A stretch of 64,000 nt of DNA from Isoptericola sp. AK164 (GCF_029643425.1 NZ_CP119106.1:2728001-2792000), one strand, 5' to 3'. Counted from the first letter of the stretch, positions 5,418 through 16,379 are shown. Notes: a model not told the origin generated them from the sequence alone. Program-made: numbers and translations.

Positions 5418-5421
<4 letters not shown>

Positions 5422-6338
5422 GGCTCCCTCGCCTCCGTCTCGGCTCCGGGCGGAAGGGGGTCGCTCCGCCCGTCGACGTGCTCGGACAGGACTGTACGGG
5501 CGCGGCGCCGTGCTGTCACGAGGTCGATGATCCGTCCGGCCGCCTCCTCGAGGGCCAGCGTGGTGGTGTCGAGCACCGGGCAGCCGAGCCGGCGCTGGAC
5601 CTGGGTGATGTCGTCGAGCTCGTCGACGATGCGGGCCAGGTCGGCGTACCCGCCCAGGCGCCCGGCGTCCTGCCGGCCCGCTCCCATGAGGTCCACCCGC
5701 CGACGACGGATGGTCACCAGCCGCTCCGGGTCGATCGTCAGACCCACGACCTTCCAGGGGTCGATCCGGAACAGCTCCGGAGGCGGCGGGACGCCGGCGA
5801 CCAGCGGGATGTTCGCGGTGCGGTACCCGAGGTAGCCGAGGTACATCGACAGCGGCGTCTTGCCGGTGCGCGAGGCCCCGACCAGCACGATCTGCGCCTC
5901 GGCGAGGCCCTCGGGCGTGGCGTGGCCGTCGTCGTTGGCGATCGCGAACTCCATCGCGTGGATGCGCTCGAAATAGTCCGCCGCGAGCCCGACGGGCTGC
6001 ACCAGGCGCGCCGGCTCGGCGGCCGTGCGCGCGGTGACGGCGTCCAGCGCCGGGGTGAGCAGGTCGGCGCACGGGATCTCGAGCTCGGCGCACCGGTCGA
6101 TCACCTGCCCGTGCAGCACCTCGTCCACCACGGTGCAGAAGACGACGGCAGGGTCCGGGTCCGCGCGCAGCTGCTCGACGACGTCGTCGAGCCCCTCCTG
6201 GCTGTGCAGGCGGGGATGGCGCACCACCACGACGTCGAGGTCGGGGTACTGCGCCTGCACGGCACGACCGACGCGGGCACCGGTGTCACCGGTGGAGTCC
6301 GCGACGACGTGGATGACGACCCGCTCCGTCGTGGGCAT
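5418..6338 (-). CDS. ppsR: Pyruvate, phosphate dikinase regulatory protein (DUF299 kinase/pyrophosphorylase)
   Basis: Bifunctional regulator that phosphorylates and dephosphorylates PPDK on the Thr near the catalytic His. The 306-aa product shows the family N-terminus (VVIHVVADSTGDTG), the P-loop GASRTGKT at residues 154-161, then PLSMYLGYLGYRTANIPLV. Its position directly before ppdK with a 4-bp overlap identifies the partner as PPDK rather than PEP synthase. The last 25 residues are charged and non-conserved. The symbol ppsR is used for the wider family; PDRP/RP1 is the plant counterpart. Confidence 0.93.
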
Positions 6339-6390: not shown

Positions 6391-6645
6391 TTACTCGACC
6401 AGGAGACTCCGACGGCGGAGCTCGTCCACGAACGCGGCCGCGTCGTGCCGCGCCCGCTCTTCGTCGATGTCGAACTCCTCCACGAGCGCCGTCGCGAGCT
6501 CGCCGGTGTCGGCGCCGTCGACGAGCGCCTGCGCGAGCAGCGTCCCGGCACGGTTCGTCGTCAGGTAGGCCGACGAGGCGAGGTCGAGCAGGACGAGCTC
6601 ACCGTCGATCTCTTGCCACGTGACGCCGTCGGTGCGAAGCCGCAT
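6391..6645 (-). CDS. Lasso peptide biosynthesis B1 protein (PqqD-like RRE)
   Basis: A small PqqD-family RiPP recognition element that binds the precursor leader and delivers it to the protease. The 84-aa product has the typical pattern DGVTWQEIDGELVLLDLASSAYLTTNRAG followed by a helical half ending RRRSLLVE. The start is ATG 6645, preceded by a GGAGGGGGAG ribosome-binding site; an upstream in-frame start at 6684 would bypass it. It is divergent from the precursor gene and shares its regulatory region (6717-6804). It is also the only lasso gene co-directional with and 52 nt upstream of the PPDK regulator, so some readthrough into that gene is possible. Confidence 0.88.
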   Translation of the reverse strand: MRLRTDGVTWQEIDGELVLLDLASSAYLTTNRAGTLLAQALVDGADTGELATALVEEFDIDEERARHDAAAFVDELRRRSLLVE

Positions 6646-6716
6646 GCCTCTCCCCCTCCTGGTGGTCCTCGGGCATCCAATCATCGACGCCGGCGGTCCA
6701 CTGTGCAGAGCGGAGA

Positions 6717-6804
6717 TTTCATCCCCACCGGACGCTCTTCACCCGGTCGCGGGGAGATTTCACCCCTGGGTCTCGCTGCGGGCGGGTCGGCCCGGTCGAA
6801 TACT
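6717..6804. promoter_or_regulatory. Divergent lasso promoter region with three TTCACCC-type sites
   Basis: Three direct copies of the motif begin at 6718 (TTCATCC), 6738 (TTCACCC) and 6759 (TTCACCC), spaced 20-21 bp, two helical turns. A candidate -10 for the precursor gene is TACTGA at 6801-6806, placing the sites 83, 63 and 42 nt upstream of it. In the other direction, toward the B1 gene, the nearest -10 candidate (TTGGAT, 6680-6675) is weak. The same motif-to-promoter geometry recurs at eight polysaccharide and lasso promoters in this window. The binding protein is unknown. Confidence 0.7.
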
Positions 6805-6839
6805 GAAACCGTCGCGCACCACAACGGAGAGGCACACCC

Positions 6840-6965
6840 ATGTACGAGGCACCCAGCATCCGCGAGGTCGGCACGGTCGCCGGGCTCACCCTCGAGGGCC
6901 AGTTCGCCCTCGACTACGACGGCCACCTGTTCCGTGGCGACAAGGAAGACGGCGGCCTCTCCTGA
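6840..6965 (+). CDS. Lasso peptide precursor (leader plus core), 41 aa
   Basis: The short open frame between the B1 and cyclase genes encodes a 41-residue precursor. Residues 2-17 fit the lasso leader pattern YxxPx(L/I)xxxGx(F/V)xxxT: Tyr2, Pro5, Ile7, Gly11, Val13, Thr17. With Thr at the conserved -2 position, the predicted core is residues 19-41, starting Glu-Gly-Gln and ending Gly-Gly-Leu-Ser. Asp27 would be ring position 9 if Glu19 is residue 1, or 8 if cleavage falls before Gly20; Asp25 would be position 7 in the first case. The C-terminal Ser41 is the residue type phosphorylated by HprK-like lasso kinases, and such a kinase is encoded downstream. A GGAGAGG sequence lies 8 nt before the ATG. 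The leader, flanking RRE, protease and cyclase together make the call firm; ring size and N-terminus are uncertain. Confidence 0.87.
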   Translation: MYEAPSIREVGTVAGLTLEGQFALDYDGHLFRGDKEDGGLS

Positions 6966-7032
6966 GGCGTCGAAAGATCCGTCGGCGGCACCCGCGGTCC
7001 CCGTGGGTGCCGCCGACGCGTCGCACGACACC

Positions 7033-8184
7033 ATGAGCCGTGACACCTACCGCCCGACCACCCACGAGATCGCGTGGGGGTGGCTGCCGGGCCTGGTCGA
7101 CCCGCCGGCTCACCGACAGGCCACGGCGCGCCCGGTCGGGGCCCTGGCCCACGTCATCGCGCGCACGGCCGGCGAACGCCAGGTCTTCGTGGCGTTCTCG
7201 GGCGGCCGCGACTCCTCCGCGGTCCTGGCGGCAGCGACGCACGCCGCGCACCTGGCGGGCACGAGGGCCCCGATCCCCGTGACGTTCGTCTACCCGGGCG
7301 TCCCGGAGACCGACGAGTCGGCGTGGCAACGCTCGGTCGTCGATCACCTGGGCCTGCAGGAGTGGTGGCGGTTACCGATCACCGTCGAGCACGACCTGCT
7401 CGGACCCGTCGCGCAGGCGAGCCTCCGGCGCCACGGCCTGCTCTGGCCGGCCACGCTCCACACCCACGAGCCGCTCCTGGAGCGGTGCGCCGGCGGCGCG
7501 ATCCTCACCGGCGAAGGCGGCGACGAGGTCTTCGGCGACCGCCGCCTGCGTCCCGTCCGCCGGACTGCCCGCCACCCCCTGGCCGCCGGCAGCCCGCGCC
7601 GCGCCGCACTGGCTGCCGTGTCGCCCGCGCGCAGCCGACGTCGGCACCTGCGGATGACGATCGCGATGCCCTGGCTGCGCCCCGCCGTCTACGACGACCT
7701 GGTCGAGCGTGTGTGCACGGACGACGTCGCAGAACCCTTGGCGTTCGGCGCCTCGCTCCGCTGGGTCGCGCGGCGACGGAGCGTCACCGAGTTCCGCCGG
7801 AACTACTCCGCGCTCGCGGCCGAGCACGAGGCCACCGTGTCACACCCGTTGCTCGACCCCGAGTTCCTCGACGCCCTCGCGCGGCACCACCCGACCGGCT
7901 TCTCCTCCCGCACCGAGGGGATGCGAGCCGTCTTTGCCGGCGCCCTGCCCGACGCCCTGCTCGCCCGGACGTCGAAGGCCACGTTCACCCACGCCTTCCT
8001 CGGCGAGGCGACCCGGGAGTTCGCCCGGAGGTGGGACGGGAGCGGCGTCCCGCACGACCTCGTCGACGCCGACGCGCTGCGGCGCGCCTGGCTGAGCGCC
8101 CGGGTCCCGGGGCCGACGAGCCTGCTGCTCCAGTCGGCGTGGCTCGCCGGCCAGGCGTGTCTCCCGGCCGAGGAGGCGGCATGA
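7033..8184 (+). CDS. Lasso cyclase (asparagine-synthetase homologue), compact form
   Basis: Activates the side-chain carboxylate of a core Asp/Glu with ATP and forms the macrolactam with the core N-terminus. The 383-aa product contains the PPi-loop SGGRDSS at residues 56-62 and the TGEGGDEVFG motif at 159-168 of the AsnB synthetase domain. The N-terminal glutaminase-like domain usual in lasso cyclases of 500-600 aa is missing: only about 50 residues precede the PPi-loop. The open frame extends upstream to 6445, but that part overlaps the B1 gene, promoter and precursor and lacks AsnB similarity. An in-frame GTG at 7003 is an alternative start. It ends with an ATGA overlap to the B2 gene. Confidence 0.88.
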   Translation: MSRDTYRPTTHEIAWGWLPGLVDPPAHRQATARPVGALAHVIARTAGERQVFVAFSGGRDSSAVLAAATHAAHLAGTRAPIPVTFVYPGVPETDESAWQRSVVDHLGLQEWWRLPITVEHDLLGPVAQASLRRHGLLWPATLHTHEPLLERCAGGAILTGEGGDEVFGDRRLRPVRRTARHPLAAGSPRRAALAAVSPARSRRRHLRMTIAMPWLRPAVYDDLVERVCTDDVAEPLAFGASLRWVARRRSVTEFRRNYSALAAEHEATVSHPLLDPEFLDALARHHPTGFSSRTEGMRAVFAGALPDALLARTSKATFTHAFLGEATREFARRWDGSGVPHDLVDADALRRAWLSARVPGPTSLLLQSAWLAGQACLPAEEAA

Positions 8185-8621
8185 ACCTCCGACGCACCGT
8201 CAGCGGCAGCGTGCTCGCGGCACGGTCGGCCGCCGTCTACGTCGTCGCCGAGACCGGGCTGCGGACGCTCGGCCTCCGTCGCACCTGCTTCGTCCTGGGT
8301 GTCCGGCTGAGTGGACCGTCGAGCACCGCGGCCCGGACCACGCTCGACACCAGCCGGCTCACCGGTCGCGAGCTGCGGGCGCTGCGTGTCGCACGCCGCG
8401 TCCTGCGGCTGCGCGCGGTGAACGGCACCTGCCTGCGCTCGGCGCTGGTCCTGGGCCGCACGCTGCGCGCCCGCGACCCCGAGATCGTGCTGGGAGTACG
8501 CCGGGTGGGCGACCGGATCGCTGCGCACGCCTGGTTGCGGGTCGACGGGGCCGACCTCGACCCGGAGGGCCTCGCCGACCGGTACCTCGAGCTCGGCCGA
8601 CCGAGCGGGAACGCCGCATGA
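8181..8621 (+). CDS. Lasso peptide B2 protein (transglutaminase-like leader protease)
   Basis: Cysteine protease that removes the precursor leader in concert with the B1 RRE protein. The 146-aa product carries the family triad: Cys84 in NGTCLRSALVL, His116 in AAHAWLRVDG, Asp122 in the same motif. Length matches stand-alone B2 proteins, consistent with B1 being a separate gene here. Its ATG overlaps the cyclase stop and its stop overlaps the kinase start, so A-C-B2-kinase form one translationally coupled unit. Confidence 0.9.
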   Translation: MNLRRTVSGSVLAARSAAVYVVAETGLRTLGLRRTCFVLGVRLSGPSSTAARTTLDTSRLTGRELRALRVARRVLRLRAVNGTCLRSALVLGRTLRARDPEIVLGVRRVGDRIAAHAWLRVDGADLDPEGLADRYLELGRPSGNAA

Positions 8622-9598
8622 CCTCGTCCGCCGCCCTGTACGGGCTCGCCGTGGACAGCGACGTCCCGATGCCGACGCGGTCCGGCCGCCTCACGACCGA
8701 CGGGCACGTCCGCATCCGTCGTGGCGCCGACGTCCCCGCGACGACGGACGCACCGCCCGGTGACGTCCTGCTCCACCACGCGAGCCCCGACCGACCCTGG
8801 TACACCGCGACGCGCACCGGCGACGGCTACCACCTGCGGTTCTACGGAACCTGCGAGTTCGTGCTCGGCCACGACCTGGAGGACGTGGTCCTGCACGTGA
8901 CCGACGGCGCGGATCCCGGCGTCGCGCACGTGCTCGCCTCCGGCGCTCTCCTTGCCTTCCAGCTCTACCTGCGCGGCCACGCCGTCCTGCACGCCAGCGC
9001 CGTCCAGGTCGGCGACGGTGTCGTCGGCTTCGTGGGGCGGTCCGGCATGGGCAAGAGCACGATGGCGGCGCTGCTCTGCGCCGAGGGCGGCGCCCTCGTC
9101 ACCGACGACGTGCTCCGGATCGACCCGGCGGGAGACGACCACCTCGCCCGGCTCGGCGCCACCCAGCTCCGGCTCCGCAAGGGCGCCGACACGTTGGCAC
9201 GACGGTTCGGCACCGGCTCGCCCGGACGAGGGCGCAGCGCCGACGACCGAGACCTCCTCGCCCCCGGACGGACCGCGAGGGACGACGTACCGGTCCGCGC
9301 TCTCGTCGTCCCGCTGCCCGAGCGCGACCGGGACGAGCTGGAGGTCGTCCCGGTGCGCGGCGCCGCCGCAGCGCTCCTCGTGCTCAGCTACCCCCGTCTC
9401 CTGGGCTGGCAGGACACCGTCGTCGCCGCCCGGCAGCTCGCCCGGGTGTCCGCGCTCGTGGCCCGCGTCCCGGTCGTCACCGCTCGCGTGCCGTGGGGCC
9501 CGCCCTTCCGCGACGACCTGGGAGCCGAGCTGATCGCGGCGCTGGGGTCTCAGGGGGTCGAGCTGGACCACTCGTCGGGGAAGTACGCGCCCGCCTGA
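8618..9598 (+). CDS. HPr-kinase-like lasso peptide tailoring kinase
   Basis: 326 aa. The central part resembles the HprK/P fold: HASAVQVGDGVVGFVG leads into the Walker A GRSGMGKST (residues 140-148), followed by LVTDDVLRID (160-169). In known lasso clusters of the paeninodin type, homologous kinases phosphorylate the C-terminal Ser of the precursor; here the precursor ends in Ser, so the same role is inferred. A variable N-terminal part of about 115 residues precedes the kinase core. The start overlaps the B2 stop by 4 bp. The 3' end overlaps the convergent exporter gene by 49 bp, so the two mRNAs are antisense to each other there. Confidence 0.8.
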   Translation: MTSSAALYGLAVDSDVPMPTRSGRLTTDGHVRIRRGADVPATTDAPPGDVLLHHASPDRPWYTATRTGDGYHLRFYGTCEFVLGHDLEDVVLHVTDGADPGVAHVLASGALLAFQLYLRGHAVLHASAVQVGDGVVGFVGRSGMGKSTMAALLCAEGGALVTDDVLRIDPAGDDHLARLGATQLRLRKGADTLARRFGTGSPGRGRSADDRDLLAPGRTARDDVPVRALVVPLPERDRDELEVVPVRGAAAALLVLSYPRLLGWQDTVVAARQLARVSALVARVPVVTARVPWGPPFRDDLGAELIAALGSQGVELDHSSGKYAPA

Positions 9599-11406
9599 AG
9601 GTCGAACAGCTCGGCGTAGAGCCCGCGGTGGGCCATGAGCTGCTCGTGGGTGCCGGACTCGACGACCCGGCCGGAGGACATGACATAGATCCGGTCGGCC
9701 CCCCGCACGGTCGCGAACCGGTGCGAGACGAACAGGGCGGACCGACCGTGCAAGGTCCGGCGGAGCGAGGAGAAGAGGTCGTGCTCGGCCCGCGGGTCCA
9801 GGGCCGCCGACGGCTCGTCGAGGATCACCAGGTCGGCGTCCCGGTAGAACGCCCGGGCGATGGCGAGCCGCTGCCACTGCCCGCCCGAGAGGTCGGCGCT
9901 GTCGTCGAACATCCGTGACAGGCGCGTCGCGTACCCGTGCGGCAGGCGTGCCAGCGCGCCGTCCACCCCGGCGGCACGAGCCGCGGCACGGACGTCGTCC
10001 CGCCCGAGCTCGTCGCGGCGGGCGTCCGCGCCGGCGTCGTCGAGCGCGATGTTCTCGGATGCGGAGAAGGCGTACCGGACGAAGTCCTGGAAGATCACGG
10101 CGATCCGGCTCCGCAGGTCGGCGTCGACCAGCGTGCCGTACGGTCGGTCCCCCCACATCGCGTGACCGGTGTCCGGGTCGTAGAGGCCGGCGAGGACCTT
10201 CGCCGCCGTGGTCTTGCCGGAGCCGTTCTCCCCCACGACGGCGACGACCTCACCGGGACCGACCGCGATCGACACGTCCGTCAGCGCGTCGGTCGTCGCC
10301 CCCGGATATCGGAAGGACACGTCCTGGATGCGCGCCCCGGCGAACGGGGGCGCATTGTCGCGGCGGTCCGGCGCGGTCGCCTCCTGCCGCGCGTGGTGGC
10401 GGAGGAACGACTGCAGGTCGTCGAGGTAGAGGCCGGACTCGTGGACCTGCTGGACACCGCCGACCAGTCCCTGGAACTGCCCCTGCAGGACCCGGATGCC
10501 GACGATCGCCGCACCGGCGTCCGCGATCCCGACCTCCCCGTTCGCGATGAGGACCACCAGCACGAGCAGCGTCCCGGCGAGCACGACGCCCGAGAGCACC
10601 TGGCCGAGGGTCGACAGCCGCAGGCGGCGCACGAGGTGCTTGCGCAGCGCCTCGAGGTAGGTGTCGTACAGGGTGCGGTACCGGTCGCGCAGCCAGGTGG
10701 ACACCTGGAACGCGCGGATCTCCTTGGCCTCGTCGCGGTTCGTCTGCACGAAGTTGACGTACATGCGTTCGCGCTGGTTGGTGGTCTGCGCCACCGTGAA
10801 GCGGAACTCCAGCGCGCTCTCGCGCCGGCTGGTCAGGAGCACCGGCACGGCTCCGACGGCGAGCAGCGGCAGCAACCACGGGTACAGCGCGACGAGCGCG
10901 GCGCCGACACCGATCGACGACACGAGCGTCCCGATGACGGTGAAGAGACCCTGGGTGACCTGGAAAGGTCGGGTCGCGGCGCTCTGCCGGACCCGTTGGA
11001 GAGTCTCGAAGAACTCCGGCGACTCGAAGTTTCGCAGCGGCACCGTGGTCGCCACGTCCTGTACGCGTTCGTTCATCGACCGGGCGACGAGCTCGCCGAG
11101 CAGTCGTCGCACGCTGCCCTGCGCCACCCCGACGACGGAGCCCAGCGCCATGAGGACCGCGAGCGCCACGACGGACCACACCAGCGCCGTGGTCACACCG
11201 GCGTCGGGGAGATCGAGGATGCGCTCCAGCACCTGCGCCACGACGAGGACCTGCAGGCCGAGTGCGGCGGCGGCCAGGATCTGCAGGCCCACCATGGCGA
11301 CGAACAGCCGCGGGCCGCAGGACCAGACGAGCCGGGTCGAGCGGCGCACGAGCTCGGCGACACGGCGCCCCGGGCGCTTCGACCGGGTCGGTCCGGTCCT
11401 GCTCAT
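9550..11406 (-). CDS. ABC transporter, fused permease-ATPase (lasso peptide exporter)
   Basis: 618-aa half-transporter. About six membrane segments lie in residues 25-300 (type I exporter fold), followed by an ATPase domain with Walker A GENGSGKTT near residue 395, Q-loop FQDFVRYAFS, signature LSGGQWQRLAIARA, Walker B DLVILDEPSAALD and H-loop VSHRF. There is no N-terminal C39 peptidase domain, so leader removal is left to the B1/B2 pair. Location in the lasso locus suggests it exports the mature peptide and gives self-immunity, as other lasso D proteins do. The start overlaps the stop of the upstream nucleotidyltransferase gene (ATGA). Confidence 0.88.
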   Translation of the reverse strand: MSRTGPTRSKRPGRRVAELVRRSTRLVWSCGPRLFVAMVGLQILAAAALGLQVLVVAQVLERILDLPDAGVTTALVWSVVALAVLMALGSVVGVAQGSVRRLLGELVARSMNERVQDVATTVPLRNFESPEFFETLQRVRQSAATRPFQVTQGLFTVIGTLVSSIGVGAALVALYPWLLPLLAVGAVPVLLTSRRESALEFRFTVAQTTNQRERMYVNFVQTNRDEAKEIRAFQVSTWLRDRYRTLYDTYLEALRKHLVRRLRLSTLGQVLSGVVLAGTLLVLVVLIANGEVGIADAGAAIVGIRVLQGQFQGLVGGVQQVHESGLYLDDLQSFLRHHARQEATAPDRRDNAPPFAGARIQDVSFRYPGATTDALTDVSIAVGPGEVVAVVGENGSGKTTAAKVLAGLYDPDTGHAMWGDRPYGTLVDADLRSRIAVIFQDFVRYAFSASENIALDDAGADARRDELGRDDVRAAARAAGVDGALARLPHGYATRLSRMFDDSADLSGGQWQRLAIARAFYRDADLVILDEPSAALDPRAEHDLFSSLRRTLHGRSALFVSHRFATVRGADRIYVMSSGRVVESGTHEQLMAHRGLYAELFDLQAGAYFPDEWSSSTP

Positions 11407-12578
11407 CGTCGGCCTCCGCTCACGGCCGTGGCGAAGTAGGCCTCGCGGGCCGCGACATCGGGCACGTCCTCCTGGAGCGGCCGGACCGCGTCCCGTCCGG
11501 CCCGGTGCCGCCATTCGATGAGTCGAGCCTGCACGTGCTTGGCGGCCAGCTGGCCCGCGCTCACGGCGGCGGACGGCCTCGCGGCCGCGTACACACCGCC
11601 GCCGAGCCGGGCGTCGCCGGGCAGCCCCGGGAACGGGTGCCTGGCGTCGCGGGAGCGGGCCAGCCGTCCCCAGGCGTTCGAGGCGACGCCGGCCAGCTCT
11701 TCGGAGCCGACGCCGTCGTGCCCGGCGACACGGTAGGCGCGGTCCAGGACCAGCGCGACCGGCACGGATGCGCGCGCCGCTCTGCTGCGCCGTGCGAGCT
11801 CGTCCCACGCGACGTCGGCCGTGACGTAGTAGGCGTCGGCGAGCCACATCAGCCGGTTCGCCCCCGCCTGTGCGGCGTGCACGGCGACGTGCAGCGCCTG
11901 GTCCTCGGCGTCGAGCATCGGGACGGAGATCCCGGACAGCTCGCGCCGTCGCCGCCGCGCCAGCATCGCGTCGACGTCGAGGGGGAAAGCACGGCGGACC
12001 GACGGCGCGACGGCCAGGTGCCAGTGCACGTCGACGTGCGTGCCGTGGCGGCCGACCATGGCCAGCTCGCCACGTCGGGAGGAGCGCAGGGCCGGCCAGT
12101 TCCGGTCGAGCAGCCGACCACCGACGTCCTCGACGATCCGGACCGCGTCACGGAACGCCGCCGGCTGGACGAGGAGGTCGAGGTCGAAGTACTCGCGCAT
12201 GTCGGCGTGCGGCCAGACGACCGAGGCGAGGGTCGCCCCCTTGACCGCGGCCCACGCGATGCCCGCCCGGTCCAGGGCCGCGCCGATGCCCTTCAGGTCC
12301 TCCAGGGCCTGGAGGTGCCGGAGCAGCTGCCGCTCCCGTGCCGACCGGAGCGCCGGAGCCCATCCGTCGGGCAGCTCGTCCCAACCGCGCACGGCACGGG
12401 CGATCGCCGGCGTGACCCGGTGCAGCCGACCGGCCTCCCAGATCTCGCTCCCCGTCGCACGGTCGAGTGCGGCGGAGCGCTGCGCCGGACGGTCGAAGGC
12501 CGCATCGAGCAGCAGCCGTGCCACCGGGCGCAGAGACTGGGCCGGACCGGCCGCCGAGCGTCGTCTCGCAAGTGCCAC
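11403..12578 (-). CDS. Nucleotidyltransferase-fold protein of the lasso locus (NTP_transf_5-like)
   Basis: 391 aa. It resembles the nucleotidyltransferase family found beside kinase-bearing lasso clusters: AAVKGATLASVVWPHADMREYFDLDLLV contains the KGA turn (113-115) and the acidic pair of DLDLLV (132-137), which could bind metal and NTP. THVDVHWHL near residue 190 supplies a third acidic position. Its substrate is unknown; a second tailoring step on the peptide or its phosphate is an inference. The start is GTG 12578, 6 nt after a CATGCT -10, so the mRNA may be leaderless. It is the first gene of a two-gene minus operon with the exporter. Confidence 0.75.
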   Translation of the reverse strand: MALARRRSAAGPAQSLRPVARLLLDAAFDRPAQRSAALDRATGSEIWEAGRLHRVTPAIARAVRGWDELPDGWAPALRSARERQLLRHLQALEDLKGIGAALDRAGIAWAAVKGATLASVVWPHADMREYFDLDLLVQPAAFRDAVRIVEDVGGRLLDRNWPALRSSRRGELAMVGRHGTHVDVHWHLAVAPSVRRAFPLDVDAMLARRRRRELSGISVPMLDAEDQALHVAVHAAQAGANRLMWLADAYYVTADVAWDELARRSRAARASVPVALVLDRAYRVAGHDGVGSEELAGVASNAWGRLARSRDARHPFPGLPGDARLGGGVYAAARPSAAVSAGQLAAKHVQARLIEWRHRAGRDAVRPLQEDVPDVAAREAYFATAVSGGRR

Positions 12579-12584
12579 GAGCCG

Positions 12585-12640
12585 AGCATGACGCGGCGGG
12601 GGCGGTCAGGACACCGCGCGGGCGGATTTCACCCGGGTGG
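12585..12640 (-). promoter_or_regulatory. Promoter with palindromic TTCACCC/GGGTG site before the nucleotidyltransferase-exporter operon
   Basis: TTCACCC at 12628-12634 abuts GGGTG to form the palindrome CACCCGGGTG. On the transcribed (minus) strand, GGGTGAA starts 44 nt upstream of the candidate -10 CATGCT (12590-12585), the distance seen for other reversed sites. The GTG start follows the -10 by 6 nt. This puts the second lasso transcription unit in the same putative regulon as the first. Confidence 0.6.
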
Positions 12641-12669: not shown

Positions 12670-15600
12670 TCAGCGTGACGCGGTCCCGGCCGCCGCCGCG
12701 GCGGACACCTCCCCGAGCACGACGGCGTCGATCAGCTGGCGGGCCCAGTCCAGCAGCGCCGCACCGCGCAGCGGCTTGCCGCCGATGCGCGCCGTCGTCG
12801 GGAAGGGCACCAGAGCGGCGCGGATGCCGGGCTTGAGGACGGTGCCCGGGTAGAGCCGCTTGAGCCTCATCTGGGCCGACTCGGCGAGGTCCAGCGGCGC
12901 GAAACGGATGTACTTGCCCTGGGCGGTGACGTCCGTGAGCCCGGCGCGACGGGCGTGGTTGCGGAACTCGGCCACCCAGAACAGCGACTCGGTCGGCTCG
13001 GGCAGCGCCCCGTATCGGTCCGTCAGCTCGGCCCGCACCTCGGCCAGGGCCGCCGAGTCCTGGGCGGCGGCGATCTTCTTGTACGCCTCGAGGCGCAGCC
13101 GCTCGGTCGCGATGTAGGTCTCGGGCAGGTGCGCGTCCACCGGCAGCTCGATGGTGATCTCCGGCTCCTCGGCGTCCCCCTCGCCCTTGAAGGCCCGCAC
13201 GGCCTCGCCGACCATGCGCACGTACAGGTCGAACCCGACGCCGGCGATGTGCCCGGACTGCTCGCCGCCGAGCAGGTTGCCGGCCCCGCGGATCTCCAGG
13301 TCCTTCATCGCGATCTGCATGCCGGCCCCGAGGTCGGTGTTCGCCGCCATGGTCGCCAGCCGGTCGTGCGCCGTCTCGGTCAGCGGGCGCTCCGGGGGGT
13401 ACAGGAAGTAGGCGTAGGCGCGCTCGCGACCGCGACCCACGCGGCCGCGCAGCTGGTGGAGCTGGGAGAGCCCGAAGGTGTCGGCACGCTCCAGGACCAG
13501 GGTGTTGGCGTTGGAGATGTCCAGGCCGGTCTCGACGATCGTCGTGCACACGAGCACGTCGACCTCGCGCTCCCAGAAGGCGCGGATGATCTGGTCGAGC
13601 TGGTTCTCGCTCATCTTGCCGTGCGCGACGCCGACGCGGGCCTCCGGCACGAGCTCGCGGATCTTGGCCGCGGTGCGATCGATCGACTCGACCTTGTTGT
13701 GGATGTAGAAGACCTGGCCCTCGCGCAGGAGCTCGCGGCGCACGGCGGCGGCGATCTGCCGCTCCTCGTACGCCCCGACGTAGGTGAGCACCGGGTGGCG
13801 CTCCTCCGGGGGTGTGGCGAGCGTGGACATCTCCCGGATCCCGGTGACGGCCATCTCGAGGGTGCGCGGGATCGGCGTCGCCGACATCGCCAGCACGTCG
13901 ACGTTGGTGCGCAGCTGCTTGAGCGTCTCCTTGTGCTCGACGCCGAACCGCTGCTCCTCGTCGACGATCACCAGGCCCAGGCTCTTGAAGGTGACCGAGC
14001 CGGTGAGGAGCCGGTGGGTGCCGATGACGATGTCGACGGACCCGTCCTTGAGCCCCTGGACCGTCTCCTCGGACTCCTTGGTGCTCTGGAACCGCGACAG
14101 CGCCCGCACGTTCACCGGGAAGCCCGCGTACCGCTCGGAGAAGGTGTCGAAGTGCTGCTGGACGAGCAGCGTCGTGGGCACCAGCACGGCGACCTGCTTG
14201 CCGTCCTGCACCGCCTTGAACGCCGCGCGGATCGCGATCTCCGTCTTGCCGTAGCCGACGTCGCCGCAGATCAGCCGGTCCATAGGGACGGTCTTCTCCA
14301 TGTCGGCCTTGACCTCGTCGATCGTGACGAGCTGGTCCGGCGTCTCGACGTAGGCGAAGGCGTCCTCCAGCTCGCGCTGCCACGGCGTGTCCGGACCGAA
14401 GGCGTGCCCGGCGGTGGCCTGACGCGCGGAGTACAGCCGGATGAGCTCACTGGCGATCTCGCGGACGTGCTTGCGGGCGCGCGCCTTGGTGTTCTTCCAG
14501 TCGGCACCGCCCATCTTGTTCAGGCTCGGCGACTCGCCGCCGGTGTACTTCGTGACCTGGTCGAGCTGGTCCATCGGCACGAACAGCCGGTCGCCGGGGT
14601 GGCCGCGCTTGGACGAGGCGTACTCGATGACGAGGTACTCGCGGGTGGCGCGGTTCGCCCCGGCGCCGAGCGTGCGCTGCACCATCTCGACGAAGCGCCC
14701 CACACCGTGCTGCTCGTGGACGACGAAGTCGCCGGCCTGCAGCTGCAGGGGGTCGACGACGTTCCGCCGACGCGAGGGCATCTTGCGCATGTCGCGGGTC
14801 GAGGAACCCTGCCGACCGGTGAGGTCGGCCTCGCTGAACACCGCGAGCCGCAGCTCGGGGACCACGAAGCCCTTGCCGACCAGCGCCGGCACCACGTGCA
14901 CGACGCCGCCCTCCGGCTCGGCCGCCAGGTCCGTGGACAGCCGGGCCGCGGTGTCGACGGCGCCGAGCTGCTCGACCATGCGCTTGGCCGGGCCAGGGCC
15001 CTCGGTGGTGAGCACGAGGCGCCACCCGGCCTTCTGCAGGCCCTGGACGTCGTCGAGCGCCCGGGCGACGTCGCCGCGGTAGGACTCGACGTCGCGGGCC
15101 GCGATCGTCACCGTGGTGCCGCCGTCGTCCGTGGTGACCGCCGGCGCCTCGTCGTCGGACGCCTCGGCCGCGTCGAGGGAGAACGCCGAGAGCGTCCACC
15201 AGCCGAGCCCGCGCCGCGCGGCGACCTCGCGGGTCTCGGCGAAGGTGGCGAACGACGCGGCGGACAGGTCGATCGGGGCGTCGGCACCCGCCACGGCCCC
15301 CGTCCACGCCGCGGCGAGGAACTCCTCGGTCGTGGCGACCAGGTCGTGGGCACGACGTCGGACCCGCTCGGGCTCGTCGAGGACCAGCAGCGCGTCGTCA
15401 CGGACCAGGTCCAGCACCGGCACCATCCGGTCGACGAGCACCGGAGCGAGGGACTCCATGCCCTCGACGGCCACGCCGGCGGCGAGCTTGTCCAGCATGT
15501 CGGTGGCGCCGGGGAGCTGCTCGACGAGCCCGGCCGCGCGCTCCCGCACGGCGTCGGTGAGCAGGATCTCCCGGCACGGCGGCGCCCAGAGCCCGTGCTC

Positions 15601-16275
15601 GGCGATCTCCAGGGAGCGCTGGTCGGCCACGGCGAACCACCGGATCTCGCTGATCTCGTCGCCCCAGAACTCGATGCGCAGCGGGTGGTCCTCCGTCGGC
15701 GGGAAGACGTCGAGGATGCCGCCGCGCACCGCGAACTCGCCCCGGCGCTCCACCATGTCGACCCGCGTGTAGGCGGCGGCGACCAGGGCGTCGCCCACCG
15801 CGGTGAGGTCCGCCTCCTGCCCCGTGTGCAGCTCGACGGGCACCAGCTCGCCGAGCCCCTCCACGACGGGCTGCAGCAGCGCGCGGACCGGCATCACCAG
15901 CACGTCGACCGGACCGGTCGGCCCGGTCTCGTCCGGGTGCGCGAGCCGACGGAACACGGCGAGGCGCCGGGCCACGGTGTCGGCCCGGGGCGAGAGCCGC
16001 TCGTGCGGCAGCGTCTCCCAGGCGGGCAGCACCGCGACGCTGTCGGACCGCTCGTCCGGCAGGTAGGCACGCAGCGCCGCTGCCGTCTCGTCCGCGTCGC
16101 GGCCGGTCGCGGTGACCACGACCAGGGGGCGCTGCTCGGCCGCCGCGGCGAGCAGCGGGGCCCGGACACCCTTCGGCCCGACGACGTTGACCTCGCCACC
16201 GCTCCCGACGGCCTCGAGCGCGGCGGCGGCGCCGGGGTCGGCGAGGAGGGCGGGGACGATGCCGGTGAGATTCAT
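12670..16275 (-). CDS. mfd: Transcription-repair coupling factor
   Basis: DNA translocase that removes stalled RNA polymerase and recruits UvrA. The product is 1201 aa with the canonical order: UvrB-homology region (EIRWFAVADQRSL, RRGEFAVRGGILDVFPP), RNA-polymerase interaction domain (QAGDFVVHEQHGVGRFVEM), RecG-like helicase with Walker A GDVGYGKTE, VDEEQRFG box, SATPIPRTL, HQLRGRVGRG, and the C-terminal autoinhibitory domain. ATG 16275 begins at the conserved MNLTGIVPALL-type start; an in-frame extension to 16308 is not supported. In actinobacteria mfd normally lies near pth and prs; here about 32 kb of polysaccharide genes separate them. Confidence 0.97.
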   Translation of the reverse strand: MNLTGIVPALLADPGAAAALEAVGSGGEVNVVGPKGVRAPLLAAAAEQRPLVVVTATGRDADETAAALRAYLPDERSDSVAVLPAWETLPHERLSPRADTVARRLAVFRRLAHPDETGPTGPVDVLVMPVRALLQPVVEGLGELVPVELHTGQEADLTAVGDALVAAAYTRVDMVERRGEFAVRGGILDVFPPTEDHPLRIEFWGDEISEIRWFAVADQRSLEIAEHGLWAPPCREILLTDAVRERAAGLVEQLPGATDMLDKLAAGVAVEGMESLAPVLVDRMVPVLDLVRDDALLVLDEPERVRRRAHDLVATTEEFLAAAWTGAVAGADAPIDLSAASFATFAETREVAARRGLGWWTLSAFSLDAAEASDDEAPAVTTDDGGTTVTIAARDVESYRGDVARALDDVQGLQKAGWRLVLTTEGPGPAKRMVEQLGAVDTAARLSTDLAAEPEGGVVHVVPALVGKGFVVPELRLAVFSEADLTGRQGSSTRDMRKMPSRRRNVVDPLQLQAGDFVVHEQHGVGRFVEMVQRTLGAGANRATREYLVIEYASSKRGHPGDRLFVPMDQLDQVTKYTGGESPSLNKMGGADWKNTKARARKHVREIASELIRLYSARQATAGHAFGPDTPWQRELEDAFAYVETPDQLVTIDEVKADMEKTVPMDRLICGDVGYGKTEIAIRAAFKAVQDGKQVAVLVPTTLLVQQHFDTFSERYAGFPVNVRALSRFQSTKESEETVQGLKDGSVDIVIGTHRLLTGSVTFKSLGLVIVDEEQRFGVEHKETLKQLRTNVDVLAMSATPIPRTLEMAVTGIREMSTLATPPEERHPVLTYVGAYEERQIAAAVRRELLREGQVFYIHNKVESIDRTAAKIRELVPEARVGVAHGKMSENQLDQIIRAFWEREVDVLVCTTIVETGLDISNANTLVLERADTFGLSQLHQLRGRVGRGRERAYAYFLYPPERPLTETAHDRLATMAANTDLGAGMQIAMKDLEIRGAGNLLGGEQSGHIAGVGFDLYVRMVGEAVRAFKGEGDAEEPEITIELPVDAHLPETYIATERLRLEAYKKIAAAQDSAALAEVRAELTDRYGALPEPTESLFWVAEFRNHARRAGLTDVTAQGKYIRFAPLDLAESAQMRLKRLYPGTVLKPGIRAALVPFPTTARIGGKPLRGAALLDWARQLIDAVVLGEVSAAAAAGTASR

Positions 16276-16379
16276 GGAGATCCTTCGGGCGCACGGCGAC
16301 GGGCCCACCTCGCCCCGGGACGGGGCGTGCGGGCTGACCGTCCTAGGTTACGCCGGGCCACGGACCGGGTCCCGCCGGG

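Follow-up and report, generated by a model that had tools for sequence, protein, structure and literature searches.

We analyzed a 64,000-nucleotide (nt) stretch of the genome of the actinobacterium Isoptericola sp. AK164 (GCF_029643425.1, NZ_CP119106.1:2728001-2792000; hereafter, the window), in which a lasso peptide cluster of seven intact genes occupies positions 6391-12578. Profile family searches identified these genes as B1, A, C, B2, K, D, and N, and they correspond in content and location to the set (precursor, B1, B2, cyclase, HprK-like kinase, exporter, and a protein of the nucleotidyltransferase [NTase] fold) proposed in an earlier inspection of the DNA, the sequence-only reading. 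An unspecified lasso cluster has been reported by antiSMASH for this strain (PMC10425560), and a search of the genome with the B2 model for a second lasso cluster gave one match only. Two of the components by which lasso clusters are recognized, the ribosomally synthesized and post-translationally modified peptide (RiPP) recognition element and the transglutaminase-like peptidase, were present. The former, the PqqD-like, leader-binding B1 (6391-6645, minus strand; 84 amino acids [aa]), matched Pfam PqqD (E = 1e-13) and scored 55.2 bits with NCBIfam lasso_PqqD_Strm, under the cut-off of 70, while the leader peptidase B2 (8181-8621, plus strand) matched PF13471 and exceeded the cut-off of NF033537 (52.8 bits; cut-off, 33). 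B1 is transcribed divergently from A-C-B2-K. The ATP-binding cassette (ABC) exporter D (9550-11406, minus strand; 618 aa) was assigned through Pfam ABC_tran (3e-27); its ABC_membrane match was weak (3e-4), and similarity to MsbA-type exporter models spans its full length. K and D are convergent, with 3' ends that overlap by 49 nt, and the 4-nt overlaps at C/B2, B2/K, and N/D suggest translational coupling. The divergent B1, the K/D overlap, and an unusually short cyclase add to the sequence-only reading.

The precursor gene A (6840-6965, plus strand) encodes a 41-aa peptide with a leader, MYEAPSIREVGTVAGLTL (residues 1-18), and a predicted core, EGQFALDYDGHLFRGDKEDGGLS (residues 19-41), that meet at the predicted cleavage site. 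The ATG is preceded by the ribosome-binding site GGAGAGG. The leader carries the YxxPx(L/I)...G...T pattern with Thr at position -2 and scored 19.8 bits with NCBIfam lasso_leader_L3 (NF033521; cut-off, 19), bearing out the sequence-only reading of a 41-aa precursor with a lasso leader and a terminal Ser. The closest matching loci in the collection searched came from Isoptericola (72% and 71% kinase identity), and in the two closest relatives the small gene before the cyclase encodes almost the same leader and ends in Ser after a variable core. The gene directly upstream of the cyclase encodes MYEAPSIREVGTVADVTLEGQLALNYDGDLFRGPKDGGGGGVS in locus L018 and MYEAPSIREVGTVADLTLEAQFDIDYDGDLFRGDRHGGGGVS in locus L019, and diverged versions of A were found in ~40 further loci. 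A conserved leader, a variable core, and a fixed terminal Ser are the pattern of a RiPP precursor. A chance open reading frame was ruled out by this conservation of sequence and position; the frame at 6840-6965, whose absence from relatives had been named beforehand as grounds for abandoning the reading, was kept.

For comparison, 120 loci were fetched around lasso peptidase B2 from the order and class of the window organism, and their precursors were read with a leader-only pattern that is blind to the C terminus. In the kinase clade, all 48 distinct precursors had a leader ending in T-x, with Thr at -2 throughout; counting from T-x, core residue 9 was Asp in 39 of them. Core residue 1 was more variable (Ala, 23; Gly, 17; Glu, 5, including the window; Gln, Ser, and Thr, one each). 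Among the five precursors of the Glu type, Glu19 was invariant and core residue 2 varied (G, A, or Q). The window core has acidic residues within positions 7-9, namely Asp7 and Asp9. Because L018 (a precursor of the Glu type) has Asn in place of Asp7, residue 2 varies, and Asp9 recurs in 39 of 48 precursors, Glu1-Asp9 is the best candidate ring, and a core of Glu19-Ser41 closed by this predicted ring is favored. The sequence-only reading had allowed a core of either 19-41 or 20-41; the pattern of Thr at -2 with Asp9 favors the former and disfavors the latter.

The C terminus of the precursors tracked the presence of the kinase. Of the 48 distinct precursors from loci with both a kinase and a short cyclase, 46 ended in Ser and the other two in Ser-Arg, whereas only 2 of 36 ended in Ser at loci with neither. 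In the window core, Ser41 is the sole Ser/Thr. The HprK-like peptide kinase K (8618-9598, plus strand; 326 aa) carries the His, P-loop Lys/Ser, and Asp-Asp of this enzyme family, and H125, G140, G143, G145, K146, S147, D163, and D164 were invariant in a 28-member alignment. These eight residues match the catalytic set H148-G163-G166-G168-K169-S170-D186-D187 of BsfK and other lasso kinases (PMC10368454). HPr kinases topped the profile search of the PDB with K, and 27 of the 28 aligned kinases matched the Hpr_kinase_C model. Because the terminal Ser tracks the kinase and K retains the catalytic set, it is very probable that the C-terminal Ser41 is phosphorylated, like its counterparts in paeninodin and pseudomycoidin. 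Single kinase losses inside the clade were also compared with the precursor end: at L159 the kinase-like frame is divergent and the precursor terminates in Phe, and at L160 a terminal Ser stands without a detectable kinase.

The cyclase C (7033-8184, plus strand) is short, at 383 aa. It matched Pfam Asn_synthase PF00733 (E = 7e-16, residues 41-353) and keeps the SGGRDSS motif, at residues 56-62, as well as the GEGGDE motif. C thus has the ATP-dependent, Asn-synthetase-like domain of a macrolactam synthetase and that domain only, with no glutaminase-like region ahead of it. In 60 of 60 comparison lasso cyclases the SGGxDSS motif lay at least 225 residues into the open frame, an offset that is an upper bound as the frames run from stop to stop, and the roughly 190-240-residue front region found in these enzymes is missing from C. 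The distance from the precursor stop to the motif was ~180-360 nt in the short-cyclase clade (at loci with the usual spacing) and 700-820 nt in comparison loci where measurable. In more than half of the clade, in-frame stops lay within 57-100 residues of the motif on its upstream side. We considered and rejected an upstream start for C, since the gene would then overlap with A and stops closely precede C in most relatives; the upstream frame is open in the window and L019, probably from high GC content. The AlphaFold2 (AF2) model of C (predicted local distance difference test [pLDDT], 93.5) was compared with AsnB, ASNS, beta-lactam synthetase, and TsnB9 by structural alignment (Z 14-17.5) and matched the whole of their synthetase half, which runs from about residue 155-160. 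Asparagine synthetase B and beta-lactam synthetase share this half and its motifs with C but carry, in addition, a glutaminase-type half at the N terminus that is missing from C.

In a tree of synthetase domains, all 31 short cyclases formed one clade (support 100/100) on a long stem, beside some of the long ones, with members from Isoptericola, Jiangella, Nocardioides, Georgenia, Occultella, and other genera. At locus L140, the kinase (364 bits) and the NTase N are close to those of the clade and the precursor ends in Ser and has a Cys-containing core, but the cyclase is long and is among those adjoining the short clade. This placement, in a tree whose rooting is not established, fits loss of the front domain inside the kinase-bearing lineage, with L140 as a possible intermediate before the loss.

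The last gene, N (11403-12578, minus strand; 391 aa), matched PF14907 NTP_transf_5 (E = 3e-32), the type of gene that marks pseudomycoidin-type clusters. Its residues K113-G114, D132-x-D134, and D183, which correspond to NTase active-site residues, were invariant in the alignment. In a Foldseek search with the AF2 model of N (pLDDT, 90.9), the best matches were NTases, for example MenT1, LnuA, and ANT(2'')-Ia, with FKRP further down.

Among characterized systems, the pseudomycoidin (psm) cluster of Bacillus pseudomycoides has all of A, B1, B2, C, D, K, and N in common with the window. The C-terminal Ser is the phosphorylation site there and the predicted one here; according to two publications, PsmK phosphorylates this Ser and PsmN then hexosylates it (PMC9266682, PMC8498205). 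Unlike this Bacillota cluster, that of the window is actinobacterial, with a single-domain cyclase, a Glu1 core, a divergent B1, and a kinase only distantly related to HprK models. The paeninodin (pade) cluster of Paenibacillus dendritiformis likewise uses an HprK-like kinase for the C-terminal Ser, as proposed for the window, and the same two reviews have PadeK acting on the linear precursor (PMC9266682, PMC8498205). It differs from the window cluster in phylum and core. Paeninodins were described as restricted to Bacillota in a 2026 paper (PMC13381572), and phosphorylated lasso clusters have been placed in Firmicutes and Proteobacteria (PMC8498205). The bsf cluster of Bradymonas sediminis pairs a kinase (BsfK) whose catalytic motif is as in the window with a predicted nucleotidyltransferase (BsfN), but BsfK targets core Ser3 and the bsf precursor ends in Asp, whereas the only Ser of the window core is terminal. 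A Bsf-like Ser3 kinase was ruled out for the window, as core residue 3 is Gln, with no Ser/Thr at that position.

Taken together, we consider it likely, with good confidence, that the locus encodes a functional lasso pathway of the paeninodin/pseudomycoidin type, in an actinobacterial lineage and with a single-domain cyclase. In this pathway, B1 would bind the YxxP leader and present the precursor, and K would phosphorylate the hydroxyl of Ser41 on the linear peptide. B2 would then cut after Leu18, with Thr at -2, and C would adenylate Asp27 (core Asp9) and link it with the Glu19 alpha-amine (core Glu1), so that a nine-residue ring would close around the tail. N would then add one or more hexoses or a related group to the phosphoserine, and D would export the product. 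The gene content, the catalytic residues, the conservation, the association of Ser with the kinase, and the short cyclase are direct observations on the sequences; the order of these reactions, the ring and its threading, and the modification by N are drawn from residues, conservation, and characterized relatives. The phosphorylated actinobacterial lasso peptide of the sequence-only reading gains support from the tracking of Ser with the kinase, the invariant catalytic residues, and the single core Ser, and remains a predicted product.

Several observations weigh against this interpretation. C scored only 11.3 bits with the lasso cyclase model NF033535 (cut-off, 525), in a match that covers C residues 46-126 and model positions 254-329 of 668. 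The model was matched at E<=0.01 by 15 of the 31 short-cyclase clade members, and its miss does not decide the identity of C because some long lasso cyclases also miss the cut-off. The Hpr_kinase_C score of K is under the Pfam gathering score (E = 4e-5), and Glu is unusual as core residue 1; a literature search on Glu1 lasso peptides found no earlier report, which is weak evidence. The contrast in terminal Ser (Fisher p = 1e-18) counts related sequences as independent, which inflates the p value, although the contrast is not subtle. At L160 the precursor ends in Ser with no kinase detectable within 13 kb, and at L039 and L045 a kinase is present, yet an extra Arg follows the Ser (...GSR). That Arg may be trimmed or tolerated by the kinase (L039 precursor, 6565-6714; L045 precursor, 6127-6252).

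Alternative readings were also weighed. The core could start at Gly20, which would give an eight-residue Gly1-Asp8 ring, put Thr at -3, and make Glu19 the last leader residue. Lasso cores classically begin with Gly, and the invariance of Glu19 in the five precursors of the Glu type would also suit a leader residue. Position 20 is nevertheless Ala or Gln in relatives, and Thr at -2 with Asp9 suits all 48 precursors, including those with A1, G1, S1, T1, and Q1 cores, so that we regard the Gly20 start as unlikely and retain Glu19. We give similarly little credence to the idea that the short cyclase works only with a front domain supplied in trans by a partner whose gene lies elsewhere in the genome. 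The long open frame ahead of the motif in every comparison cyclase speaks for such a partner, but no such domain is encoded by any of the seven genes that fill the cluster, the short form spans several families as a single old clade, and the model of C is confident and well packed. A silent cluster or a decayed remnant appears very improbable, given that all frames are intact, catalytic residues are kept, and the ribosome-binding site and 5' region are conserved between species.

A more serious, though still doubtful, alternative concerns N, which might not add a hexosyl group but act as a true nucleotidyltransferase, with AMP, GMP, or CMP left on the phosphoserine, or as an enzyme of immunity or regulation. 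NTase-fold enzymes such as FKRP use nucleotide-activated sugars, which counts against an N that leaves a nucleotidyl group. The predicted fold is nearest to antibiotic adenylyltransferases and the nucleotidyltransferase toxin MenT1, and the metal-binding DxD is invariant, both of which favor nucleotidylation. The sole characterized relative in such a cluster, PsmN, puts one or two hexoses onto the phosphoserine of pseudomycoidin, according to reviews that leave room for a nucleotidyl route (PMC9266682, PMC8498205); the review of pseudomycoidin allows nucleotidylation by PsmN with the sugar added by a host enzyme (PMC9266682). By analogy to PsmN, N most likely adds hexose to the phosphoserine of the peptide. 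The earlier wording of a product "nucleotidyl- or otherwise further-modified" can thus be narrowed to a hexose, with the nucleotidyl part less favored.

More broadly, we lean toward the view that the lasso peptides of a whole, widespread actinobacterial lineage are phosphorylated and probably phosphoglycosylated, that some have Glu or Gln as core residue 1, and that they are made with a natural one-domain cyclase in which the glutaminase-like half has been lost and is dispensable for knotting. This would extend lasso clusters with a kinase and an NTase to Actinobacteria, where the literature surveyed had not placed them; our search for Isoptericola lasso kinases and short lasso cyclases found no earlier report, with partial coverage, such that this absence proves little. 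A natural minimal cyclase allows one to ask which parts of the enzyme are needed for knot-tying. No lasso cyclase structure was known to a 2026 review (PMC13352647), and the 383-aa enzyme is an attractive target for one. The association of kinase and terminal Ser also offers a ready system for studying the effects of phosphorylation and sugar addition on lasso peptides.

The B1/A intergenic region contains three direct repeats of TTCAYCC, ~21 nt apart (6718-6724, 6738-6744, and 6759-6765, plus strand), that form a putative operator. Both their position and their sequence are conserved in L018 and L019, with divergent spacers between them, and a two-repeat TTCAYCC pattern matched the 3.58 Mb genome only once. 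Downstream, GAATACTGAAAC (6798-6809, plus strand) is the probable -10 region of the A-C-B2-K operon, with 12 of 12 columns invariant across three species; a sigma-70 consensus scan found no promoter, and the -10 assignment is inferred. GATTTCACCC, which has the core sequence of these repeats, stands upstream of the N-D operon (12625-12634, plus strand) and also lies upstream of N in L018 and L019. At the position of the B1/A repeats, L023, L026, and L044 have inverted repeats, TTTCACCC...GGGTGAAA, and a search of the genome with the operator palindrome pattern gave no further match. A common regulator of the three transcription units is likely, and the repeats look like an operator that all three share.

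The cluster is flanked on the left by what we take to be a PpsR-like gene (5418-6338) and on the right by a gene that is presumably for an Mfd-like transcription-repair coupling factor (12670-16308). It lies close to mfd in four relatives, L018, L019, L042 (Terrabacter; kinase 43% identical), and L045, which suggests a preferred or ancestral position for the cluster. Further variation was seen in the relatives. The core of L039 has its first acidic residue at position 10. The Cellulosimicrobium locus L031 (12336-12515) has two short cyclases and two precursors, and its precursor GYPQNCKYGHGADN...CGPGDPLS has no Asp/Glu at core positions 7-9 and two Cys. In the Jiangella/Phytoactinopolyspora loci L021, L025, L027, L029, and L032, two different Ser-ending precursors lie in tandem before one cyclase, so that two phospho-lasso peptides are probably made there by a single set of enzymes.

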